64,000 bases of DNA from an uncultured Erythrobacter sp. Lineage in GTDB: Bacteria; Pseudomonadota; Alphaproteobacteria; Sphingomonadales; Sphingomonadaceae. The stretch lies in assembly GCF_947502395.1 (NCBI RefSeq), contig NZ_CANMZM010000001.1, positions 744,001 through 808,000 on the forward strand, in the 5' to 3' direction. The stretch's first letter is position 1. Each line of letters opens with the position of its first letter. The translations under genes were made by a program, and so were the position numbers. The notes beneath the pieces were generated by a model. It was not told the DNA's origin. It searched no databases and was given only the letters and a program-made list of their open reading frames with translations. Shown here one piece after another: positions 61,648-63,613 of this stretch.

Positions 61648-62199
61648 CTAGAACTCCACCCGTTCCACGGCGCCCGCTTCACCTCCAGTCGCACCGCCAT
61701 TCGGATTCTCGACGAGAAACTGCCAATTCAGCACGCTCGCAAATGCCACCCATGCCAAATACGGCAGAAGGACAATCGCGGCGAGGCGCCGAACCCGCCA
61801 GAATAGCCAAAGCACCACCAGCAGCGTCAACGTCGTAAAGATCAAGATGCCCAACCCTGCTGTCATATTTTGCATCCCGAAGAAGGCGAAGGTCCAAGCC
61901 AGATTGCCTACAAAATGGATCGCAAAGGCAATGATTGCGATACCTCGTCCATGCGCACCCCATGCGCTCGCCACCAGCGCAACCGACAGGCCGATCATTA
62001 CATAGAGAATGGTCCACACGATGCCGAACGCTGCGGGAGGCGGGAAAATCGCGGGCTTAGCAAGGCTTTGAAACCACACCGTGTCAGGGCTGCCCAACTG
62101 CCCACCCAAAAAGCCGAGCAGGACTATAAGCGGAACCATAAAGAGCGACCAGCGTGCAAAACTTGCCCGCAATTGCGCTTTGGAAGCCAGAAAGTTCAT
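61648..62199 (-). CDS. tspO: TspO/MBR family tryptophan-rich sensory protein
   Basis: The ATG at 62199 after AGGAG gives 183 residues with five helices; the open frame to 62370 reaches into the leader. Family signatures are WFQSLAKPAIFPPPAAFGIVWTILYVMIG, the Trp/Asn-rich NLAWTFAFFGMQNM and YLAWVAFASVLNWQF (each quoted in part). TspO binds tetrapyrroles and in alphaproteobacteria tunes photosynthesis or stress genes by export of porphyrin intermediates. The tail after the last helix (NGGATGGEAGAVERVEF) is polar. It lies upstream of ubiK on the same strand. Confidence 0.93.
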   Translation of the reverse strand: MNFLASKAQLRASFARWSLFMVPLIVLLGFLGGQLGSPDTVWFQSLAKPAIFPPPAAFGIVWTILYVMIGLSVALVASAWGAHGRGIAIIAFAIHFVGNLAWTFAFFGMQNMTAGLGILIFTTLTLLVVLWLFWRVRRLAAIVLLPYLAWVAFASVLNWQFLVENPNGGATGGEAGAVERVEF

Positions 62200-62497
62200 C
62201 GCGTCTCCTGAGGACTTGGTCGCTGTGCGATTCGCCCTGTTTTCCCGTTGTTGACCGCGATACACGAGCCGCATTCTCGTGCAAATCGCTAGGCACACCT
62301 GCCGTGCAAGTGTCTCGCTTGGCCGAACTTTTGTGACGTTTTTGAGAAAGACCGTTCGCGCTTTCGCCACATTGTGTTAGCGTTGCCACATTCTTGCCGT
62401 GATTCGGGGCGCTGCGGCCGGAATTATCCTCGCGCTCCAGGTACCAACTGGGACAGACCACCTAGGGGTCCCACGTCCCATTTGAGGGGAACATTTG
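62200..62497. other. 298-base region between divergent tspO and the cysteine-repeat gene
   Basis: It carries both promoters. Near the plus-strand gene the leader has overlapping symmetry: TGGGAC at 62449-62454 can pair with GTCCCA at 62468-62473 or at 62475-62480, so two alternative stems are possible just before the ribosome site AGGGGA at 62485-62490. Nothing else was recognised. Confidence 0.4.
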
Positions 62498-62773
62498 ATG
62501 AAAAAGACCAACTTTGCTTCAATGCTCGCTGTTTCTGGCGGTCTTGCGCTCGCAACTGCCGCTTGCTCAGCTCCTGCTGAAGAAGCAGATACTGCAGCTG
62601 ACGAAACTTCGGTTGAAGCTGTAGCTTGCTGTGCTGCTGGCTGCTGTGCTGCTGGCTGCTGTGCTGCTGCATGCGAAGGTGGCTGCTGTGCTGCTGGTTG
62701 CTGTGCTGCTGGCTGCTGTGCTGCTGCATGCGAAGGCGGCTGCTGTGGCGCTGCTTGCTGCGCCGCTGCGTAA
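62498..62773 (+). CDS. Small cysteine-repeat lipoprotein
   Basis: The ATG at 62498 after AGGGGA gives 91 residues. Residues 1-22 are a signal with a weak lipobox (ATAAC, Cys23). Residues 24-43 are an acidic Ala/Glu/Asp/Thr linker. From Cys44 on the protein is built of Cys-Cys-Ala-Ala-Gly units: a 19-residue block (CCAAG, CCAAG, CCAAA, CEGG) is present twice (62627-62683 and 62684-62740), followed by CCGAACCAAA. There are 18 cysteines in 48 residues and no Tyr, Trp or His there. It is likely an envelope metal-binding or redox-buffer protein. No known family is recognised. A terminator follows at 62805-62840. Confidence 0.82.
   Translation: MKKTNFASMLAVSGGLALATAACSAPAEEADTAADETSVEAVACCAAGCCAAGCCAAACEGGCCAAGCCAAGCCAAACEGGCCGAACCAAA
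62627..62740 (+). repeat. Two 57-bp tandem repeats within the cysteine-repeat gene
   Basis: Two in-frame 57-base units encode the same 19 residues. Within each are shorter 15-base units of TGCTGTGCTGCTGGC type. The copies differ only at a few third-codon positions (for instance GGT/GGC), so they are not a fresh duplication or read error. Confidence 0.9.
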
Positions 62774-62804
62774 GCTCAAGCAACGCGAACCACGCGTTAC
62801 AATT

Positions 62805-62840
62805 CGACCGGTGGCAACGAAGGTTGCCGCCGGTCGTTTT
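62805..62840 (+). terminator. Intrinsic terminator after the cysteine-repeat gene
   Basis: CGACCGGTGGCAAC (62805-62818) pairs with GTTGCCGCCGGTCG (62823-62836) around GAAG, a 14-base stem with one G-U pair, then TTTT. It ends the single-gene transcript 31 bases after the stop. Confidence 0.88.
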
Positions 62841-62926
62841 GCATCTGGATTTGACGCCGCTCAAATCCACGAATGCCGCGATATTGTAGCTGTAACTTTC
62901 CAATCGGATCGTTAGAAAGACAGACT

Positions 62927-63613
62927 ATGACGACAGAAGCCGCGACCAAACAGCCGATGACCCAGATTGAAGCTGCCCATACGGTGATTGAGACAATCAC
63001 TGAGATGGCGCAGGAGCAAAAACCACTGATGCTGAGGGTTGTCCCCGAAGATGGCGCTACCTTCTGGACCCACTACCCAAAGAACGACGCGCGCGACAAA
63101 TTCTGCAAGTCTCGCTGGTATTATCACGTTCATGCACCCGGCAGCCGCGACACGGACGAGCACGGGCACTTTCACCTTTTCCTTCACCGCACGCAGCTGC
63201 CCGAGGGACTGGAGCCCAAAGTGTGGCCGCCGCAAGGCGAGGATGCCCGTGCGCATGTTACCCACCTGATCACGCTGTCGATTGACACAAATGGCATTCC
63301 ACGCAGCTGGTTCACGGTGAACCGGTTTGTGACCAATGAGTTCCTCTATCCGGCCGACGTGATGATTGAGCACCTGCCAGACTTTAACGTCGATCACACC
63401 AACCAGGACGACCTCGTCAACCGCTTTGTTACCGCGATGGTTGCGCTATATCGGGATGAGATTGCGGTGCTCTTGAAAGAGCGCGACATGCGTCACGCGG
63501 AACTTGAAGCCGAGTTCGGCGAAGATGCTTACAACAAGAAAAGCGGTGTCGAGGTTTTAAGCCAGATTCCCATCGATCTCGACACCAAGCTGAGCTCACT
63601 TGATCTAGAGTAG
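62927..63613 (+). CDS. Hypothetical cytoplasmic protein of the DUF6969 type
   Basis: The 228-residue protein starts at the ATG at 62927 (MTTEAATKQPMTQIEAAHTV) with GAAAGA upstream. It has no signal or membrane helix. Conserved-looking pieces are WTHYPKNDARDKFCKSRWYYHVHAPGSR, DEHGHFHLFLHRTQLPEGL (His-rich) and RSWFTVNRFVTNEFLYPAD. The HGHFHLF stretch may bind metal. As far as I recall it matches a DUF6969-like family of proteobacteria without known function. It follows the terminator of the cysteine-repeat gene and ends 3 bases before the convergent tlyA. Confidence 0.75.
   Translation: MTTEAATKQPMTQIEAAHTVIETITEMAQEQKPLMLRVVPEDGATFWTHYPKNDARDKFCKSRWYYHVHAPGSRDTDEHGHFHLFLHRTQLPEGLEPKVWPPQGEDARAHVTHLITLSIDTNGIPRSWFTVNRFVTNEFLYPADVMIEHLPDFNVDHTNQDDLVNRFVTAMVALYRDEIAVLLKERDMRHAELEAEFGEDAYNKKSGVEVLSQIPIDLDTKLSSLDLE

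Follow-up and report, generated by a model that had tools for sequence, protein, structure and literature searches.

A tail-swapping Erythrobacter lipoprotein is probably part of an undescribed extracytoplasmic holding system for copper or other soft metals

What might a tiny exported protein do whose tail carries 18 cysteines? Such a protein is encoded on the plus strand at positions 62498..62773 of the window, that is, the whole 64,000-nucleotide stretch of Erythrobacter DNA that was analysed. The frame, with an ATG at 62498, a stop at 62773 and 91 codons, is a real gene, and its 91-aa product returned no family match in Pfam (E up to 1), NCBIfam or PHROGs. Judged by eye, the N-terminus (MKKTNFASMLAVSGGLALATAAC) comprises an n-region, a hydrophobic stretch and the lipobox ATAAC, which supplies one of 19 cysteines in total (Cys23); an acidic linker follows, and then the tail with the other 18, mostly CC pairs at a spacing of three residues. 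By these visual features the product would count as a bacterial lipoprotein anchored in the envelope, and it is probably abundant in the cell. A 19-residue block (CCAAGCCAAGCCAAACEGG) stands in two tandem copies within the tail (62627..62740, plus strand; 57-bp copies at 62627-62683 and 62684-62740). The window has 665 stretches that run for 50 codons or more without a stop; the two richest of them reach 18 and 17 cysteines per 50 residues, the second presumably being this repeat read in a different frame, and the third reaches 9. A preliminary description of this DNA had already noted the cysteine repeat, its doubled block and the lipobox-like end of the signal, and all three stand. It had also read third-position differences between the two repeat copies as a sign of selection for the protein; both differences do fall on third positions, but two in 57 bases are too few to carry that argument.

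The lipoprotein was found in 22 of 61 genomes searched, all 22 from one genus, for which a set of 37 genomes was used (Erythrobacter including Porphyrobacter). A profile of the N-terminus, run on the stretches adjoining tspO and DUF6969, recovered 37 lipoprotein genes in 33 of these genomes, all sharing a cysteine at the lipobox position; beside the two anchor genes it found none in G007, G008 and G033, and a G012 match (167 aa, E 0.38) was left out of the count. Orthology is anchored by the divergent neighbour tspO (61648..62199, minus strand; TspO/MBR, Pfam E 1.2e-34), whose best match reaches at least 60% identity in all 36 other genomes of the genus (in G005 and G014 the match is cut short by the end of a contig). 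The relatives that the preliminary description had proposed to look for, next to tspO and with a variable number of repeat units, do exist. None of the window neighbours with a Pfam match (TspO, BMFP, S9 peptidase, DUF6969) is a known copper gene. In another genus of the same family, G106 holds a cousin with a similar N-terminus and CAAC repeats that adjoins DUF6969. At the tspO locus of G025 (L049), two family lipoproteins stand in tandem, one Met-rich and one ETPAA-type. The genome of the window also encodes, on contig C2, another small Ala/Asp/Glu-rich lipoprotein-like ORF (L089:1740-2051), near a weak match, on the opposite strand, to the leader described below.

Comparison across the genus revealed a conserved N-terminus and a tail exchanged between Cys forms (CCAAG- or CEAACEGAECG-type), Met forms (EGEMA-, EGDAMA- or EEGMT-type) and a third, ETPAA-type form with few sulphur residues. 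Classed by at least six Cys or at least six Met after residue 28, the 48 sequences on a tspO tree comprised 18 Cys, 5 Met and 25 other tails (48 of 53 rows; L109, L119, L135, L136 and the Met-tailed L144 have too little tspO and were omitted). The Cys group needs two changes on this tree and the Met group five, no fewer than with shuffled labels, implying either that Met-rich tails arose repeatedly or that the threshold cuts a continuum. The window sequence and E. longus, both Cys-tailed, form a clade with the Met-tailed S6317L1 (G024, locus L134; support 99/93). Both G024 and G020 keep tspO and DUF6969 on the two sides of the gene, yet have Met tails, with 10 (G020) and 7 (G024) Met beyond the signal sequence and 0 and 2 tail Cys, respectively. 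Tails with no Cys and few Met (one Met in G016 and G017, for example) retain the same leader and position, so that metal binding, judging from these relatives, cannot be the only function of the lipoprotein.

Where the tail is of the Cys form, its codons point to constraint on the protein. The 60 most similar pairs include 11 Cys-tailed pairs, and in all 11 the tail differences are most frequent at the third codon position: by positions 1/2/3, 0/0/15 for L100 versus L128, 0/1/6 for L100 versus L120, 1/2/11 for L128 versus L137 and, in the weakest case, 3/5/9 for L105 versus L133. Close relatives thus show the pattern of purifying selection on the Cys tail and bear out what had been claimed from the two repeats.

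Upstream alignments uncovered a TGnTA element conserved among relatives. On this reading, TGTTAGCGT (62375..62383, plus strand) is a probable extended -10 element, from which transcription would start at about 62389; a sigma-70-type promoter scan gave 0 sites in support of an extended -10 at this place. At the other end, an intrinsic terminator (62805..62846, plus strand) separates the lipoprotein gene from DUF6969, with a 14-pair stem and T run at 62805-62836. A consensus scan was uninformative by itself (one terminator found against 1.0 expected in shuffles); the hairpin has a calculated folding energy of -32.7 kcal/mol (z -7.2 versus shuffled sequence), and a hairpin followed by T's lies between the lipoprotein gene and the next gene at 18 of 18 loci, a count made without a shuffled control. 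The gene's own terminator, as first described, is thereby upheld. Upstream of tspO, CGATTCG and GATACAC elements are conserved in most of 14 aligned relatives (window 62200-62330), and this block is perhaps the tspO promoter.

Just 3' of the TGnTA element, the same alignments contain a conserved block (62385..62437, plus strand) that is predicted, from an alignment of 28 leaders and their covariation, to be an H-type pseudoknot of two helices, P1 (62391-62399/62415-62423, with one mismatch in the window) and P2 (62407-62412/62432-62437). From 36 of the 37 genes considered (one of the two tandem G025 genes was omitted), the 28 leaders kept were those holding the core ATTCYTGCCGYGATTCG, and the conservation of the P1 5' strand and of GATTCG among them is partly due to this selection. 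The eight genes lacking the core are the Cys forms next to tspO in G002, G006 and G015, the gene of G005, and the DUF6969-linked copies of G014, G029, G034 and G035. In P1, 94.8% of cells are paired and one pair has changed on both sides; as many doubly changed pairs occurred in 477 of 500 shuffles, and P1 alone gives little covariation evidence because it hardly varies. In P2, 83.5% of cells are paired, seven of nine pairs have changed on both sides, and the covariation score of 0.376 was matched by none of 500 shuffles (0.247, sd 0.021), while slid versions of the helix scored at most 0.178. Conservation is poor for the outer pairs of P2, where columns 31-33 are unpaired in 9, 10 and 14 of the 28 leaders. 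RNAalifold, a program unable to represent pseudoknots, predicted P1 with a small inner hairpin and left P2 out, and single-sequence folding of three leaders with a program that ignores pseudoknots gave z values of +1.3, -1.3 and -0.3, so that none stands out by its stability. A further 29 leaders, outside the alignment but related to the aligned ones, were chosen by the 5' core and so provide a free test for the other strands only: all have seven to nine of the nine P1 pairs and at least six contiguous P2 pairs, 21 of the 29 beat shuffles at p<0.05, and the 5' strands pair better with their own 3' strands (18.8) than with the 3' strands of other leaders (15.0). The leader with alternative stems of the preliminary description is thus structured, its stems being better described as a conserved H-type pseudoknot.

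The GATTCG of the core resembles what we take to be a cell-cycle (GcrA/CcrM) site. A promoter reading of this kind was considered and set aside, as the covarying helices around the motif and its place 3' of the -10 favour an RNA element; it may have an additional role in the DNA. In the 28 leaders of the alignment, which were selected for holding it, the pseudoknot encloses GATTC (62401-62405), a GANTC methylation site that could give the DNA a second, cell-cycle role.

The leader looks specific to the genus and tied to the lipoprotein gene, whatever the tail. Its exact core occurs in 52 named-genome loci, from Erythrobacter, Porphyrobacter, records named only at higher rank and one Qipengyuania; a family lipoprotein lies behind it in 52 of 52, at 64-126 nt from the core start in 51 of them and, once the sequence stretch was extended, also in the 52nd, E. 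longus. A covariance model was run on 296 genomes sampled across the order, 24 of which are listed for the genus; it matched 18 of these 24 (six of the 18 had been used in building it). Its four weak matches elsewhere in the family, in other genera (E 0.004-0.008 in this set of 296), are at chance level, with no small lipoprotein seen beside them. There was no sign of a leader regulon, the genome of the window having one strong site. Rfam returned 10 matches up to E 10 on 62300-62900, all below gathering score (best 18.3 of 40 bits), none up to E 10 over 62385-62437, and none up to E 1 for the leaders of five relatives. Three loci beginning near tspO contain, in similar places, sub-threshold Rfam matches to the Caulobacter sRNA CC2171 (L026:2619-2786, L041:2706-2885 and L050:2624-2801; 54.3, 42.0 and 28.7 bits, gathering 75).

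The downstream neighbour, which the preliminary description had missed, encodes a 228-aa DUF6969 protein (62927..63613, plus strand; PF22308, E 3.6e-64, 216.5 bits with a cut-off of 27). It begins 153 bp downstream of the lipoprotein gene if the start at 62927 is chosen; an earlier in-frame ATG lies at 62873. No signal peptide is visible, and a His-rich motif, YHxH...EHGHxH, stands out: across 14 divergent proteins of the family, Y66, H67, H69, E78, H79, H81, H83 and H113 never vary, and they form a probable metal site. A Foldseek search of the PDB with a DUF6969 model gave no significant match, so no activity could be read from the fold. A pattern scan for DUF6969 in loci of named genomes located 17. 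Within the genus, 17 of 19 lipoprotein genes adjacent to DUF6969 have at least six tail Cys, the other two being the Met-tailed genes of G020 and G024, versus 0 of 18 non-adjacent genes with any tail Cys, counts that ignore phylogeny; G029, G034 and G035 hold one gene of each kind per genome. As all 18 genes away from DUF6969 have no tail cysteine, cysteines are not essential to the lipoprotein as such, a point that the preliminary description had also missed.

The association extends beyond the genus. We scored ORFs with a signal-like N-terminus, at least six Cys in 40 residues and low complexity, a criterion set after seeing examples. Outside the main locus of the genus, DUF6969 had such an ORF no more than 2 kb away at 15 of the 30 loci, amounting to 17 ORFs in 136 kb near versus 0 in 107 kb far; among the positives, that of L145 is a larger protein resembling a cytochrome, and the count leaves out a Cys-repeat ORF of L203 that falls below the threshold. 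With the criterion fixed, 13 of 40 new loci, hand-picked from the DUF6969 match list with neighbours unseen and several sharing a genus, were positive, giving 13 ORFs in 182 kb near versus 3 in 301 kb far; L263 is doubtful (it looks spurious), the positives of L284 and L285 are again larger proteins resembling cytochromes, and L261, counted among the far matches, lies just beyond 2 kb. The remaining 15 of 30 and 27 of 40 loci have DUF6969 with no such neighbour. Sampling 385 genomes of its class turned up DUF6969 in 90. Neither DUF6969 nor the repeat motifs CNPCAAK, NPCAAKN, KCNPCAA and CCAAEGCC were mentioned in the literature searched, which excluded subscription journals.

The company that DUF6969 keeps elsewhere recalls a known copper-related system. 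In L207, a DUF6969/Cys-repeat pair directly follows a bufferin operon, DUF2282-MNIO-DUF2063-DoxX. Other pairs adjoin FGE-sulfatase, cytochrome c domains fused to NPCAAK tails or cytochrome P460, and in L196 and L199 SoxA/TsdA-type cytochrome domains are fused to Cys repeats near DUF6969. Bufferins (Buf1/DUF2282, Buf2, Buf_EGKCG) are described as small Sec-exported Cys-rich proteins associated with MNIO (PF05114) and having cytoplasmic partners; some are lipoproteins, and a few are fused to cytochrome c or to FGE, the latter with a copper rationale (PMC12452194). DUF6969 also occurs beside rhodanese, sulphur-transport, ArsR-type, cytochrome b561 and TRAP-type genes, neighbours that fit sulphur chemistry as well as copper. 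Rhodanese lies beside it in L204 and L206 (Pfam) and L205 (by likeness), L204 also having Sulf_transp and an ArsR-type regulator; none of these three loci has a Cys-repeat protein by the above definition, and a separate sulphur role for their DUF6969 is possible. In Erythrobacter G005 and G027 the order, read by eye, is YHS-like, Cys-repeat (CNPCAA or NPCAA), DUF6969, DUF4329-like, and the genome of the window has the same YHS-like/Cys-repeat/DUF4329-like block without DUF6969. The second exported Cys-repeat protein of this genome (L002:744-1638; G000:C1:257620-257919; 100 aa, 20 Cys) lies 3' of a YHS-domain protein, and YHS/Cys-repeat pairs recur, by eye, in E. longus, G009, G018, G005 and G027. 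Just before DUF6969 in G050 stands an exported Ala/Lys repeat ORF (L152:1658-2050), possibly a Cys repeat read out of frame.

Where a Cys-repeat protein that has a promoter, a leader and a terminator to itself stands beside a signal-less His-rich protein, the arrangement resembles a precursor with its maturase. We tentatively favour the reading that the Cys-tailed lipoprotein is a bufferin-like soft-metal sink and DUF6969 its cytoplasmic loader or modifier; metal binding is something we infer. The lipoprotein gene would form its own transcription unit, of extended -10 promoter, pseudoknot leader, gene and terminator, and the leader would probably tune translation or mRNA stability; given the terminator between the two genes, co-expression with DUF6969 would not be required. 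The tail could act as a flexible, repeat-built ligand arm, Sec-exported and anchored in the envelope, whose paired Cys (Met in two DUF6969-linked relatives) would bind soft metal ions, of which Cu(I) is the likeliest, and keep them outside the cytoplasm. Before export, the Cys tail may be loaded, protected or modified by the cytoplasmic, His-rich and probably metal-binding DUF6969 protein, or in concert with it, in a manner likened to the action of MNIO enzymes on bufferins. Replacement of Cys by Met with acidic residues kept fits soft-metal ligation, copper first. The preliminary description had proposed soft-metal binding too; the Cys/Met exchange and the bufferin-like neighbourhoods of DUF6969 lend this support. 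Its wider picture of a selected envelope lipoprotein with terminator and leader has survived, now with DUF6969 and the pseudoknot added.

The same tails could instead be a thiol/thioether redox buffer, sacrificial oxidant scavengers in the envelope of an aerobe that are recycled by periplasmic reductases. Both Cys and Met can be oxidised, and they replace one another at one locus; the divergent neighbour is TspO, a protein linked to oxidative stress in other bacteria. We nevertheless consider this explanation unlikely: the Cys-to-Met replacement fits oxidant scavenging less fully than soft-metal ligation, many tails have no Cys and scarce Met, and both the adjacency to a signal-less His-rich DUF6969 protein and the bufferin operon in L207 would go unexplained.

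Neighbouring sulphur genes keep a persulfide role in play, in which Cys repeats accept or store sulfane sulphur and DUF6969 is a metal-dependent persulfide enzyme. The rhodanese genes of L204 and L206, the Sulf_transp and ArsR-type regulator genes of L204, the DoxX of L207 and the SoxA/TsdA-type fusions of L196 and L199 would all suit such a role. It seems improbable here, since the rhodanese/Sulf_transp loci L204-L206 hold no Cys-repeat protein as defined above, Met tails are left unexplained, and none of those sulphur genes was found by Pfam among the tested neighbours of the window gene. Equally improbable is a tail that serves as a structural spacer or acidic brush, its Cys content having arisen through repeat slippage and doing little in itself: the high lability of the tail, its short tandem repeats, the several chemistries serving at one locus and the Met labels scattered on the tree no less than shuffled ones would suit it, but in close Cys-tailed pairs most tail differences fall on third codon positions, and Cys content tracks DUF6969 (17/19 versus 0/18).

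A bolder extension of the metal-sink reading, which we offer as a doubtful possibility, would make DUF6969 a new class of cytoplasmic metal-dependent maturase, unrelated to MNIO, that modifies or metal-loads exported Cys-repeat proteins across Pseudomonadota; the tail-swapping Erythrobacter lipoprotein would be one member, its synthesis set by a new pseudoknot riboregulator that possibly senses the tail ligand. Work on exported Cys-rich metal sinks is young and has so far centred on MNIO enzymes; DUF6969 points to a second partner family. If DUF6969 does modify or load Cys repeats, many unannotated low-complexity genes would gain a function. The genus itself offers a natural experiment, with three tail chemistries at one locus under one promoter and leader, and the leader, a compact, covarying pseudoknot without an Rfam match, is open to direct probing.

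How does this system compare with those already known? SAM-II, preQ1 and others are H-type pseudoknot riboswitches, and the leader shares with them two interleaved helices near the inferred mRNA 5' end; it differs in having no Rfam match even at permissive thresholds, and in its single strong site in the genome and its constant place before the lipoprotein gene (all 52 named loci). Like the lipoprotein, metallothioneins and Csp copper-storage proteins are Cys-rich. By its motif, however, the lipoprotein would be exported and lipid-anchored, and it matches no NCBIfam family; having no CxC and no Pfam match, it would not be classed as a metallothionein. The C-x3-C spacing known from Csp proteins is formally present in its CCAAGCC, and Pfam returned no match to the Csp family. 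Bufferins come closer: in both cases a small Sec-exported Cys-rich protein goes with a cytoplasmic partner, which is predicted here from the genes. The window lipoprotein has a CC-x3 repeat, however, instead of EGKCG, a motif absent from its sequence, or four or six fixed Cys; it has no Pfam match to DUF2282 (Buf1) at E up to 1, its partner is DUF6969 and not MNIO, and its tail can be Met. An MNIO partner was considered and rejected. No MNIO gene lies beside the window gene, the single PF05114 place in its genome being C3:147768 and the window contig C1, and PF05114, present in 22 of 41 relatives, does not track Cys tails: it is absent from the Cys-tailed G002 and the Met-tailed G020, each of which has DUF6969, and present in G001, which lacks a Cys tail. 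The KCNPCAAKK, NPCAAK and KCGAK repeat proteins are Lys/Asn/Pro-rich where the window lipoprotein is Ala/Gly/Glu-rich, mostly lack a lipobox (by eye), and in an unsystematic look showed no tspO or pseudoknot leader; like the lipoprotein, they are exported and of low complexity, with a Cys-repeat tail and a DUF6969 gene within 2 kb.
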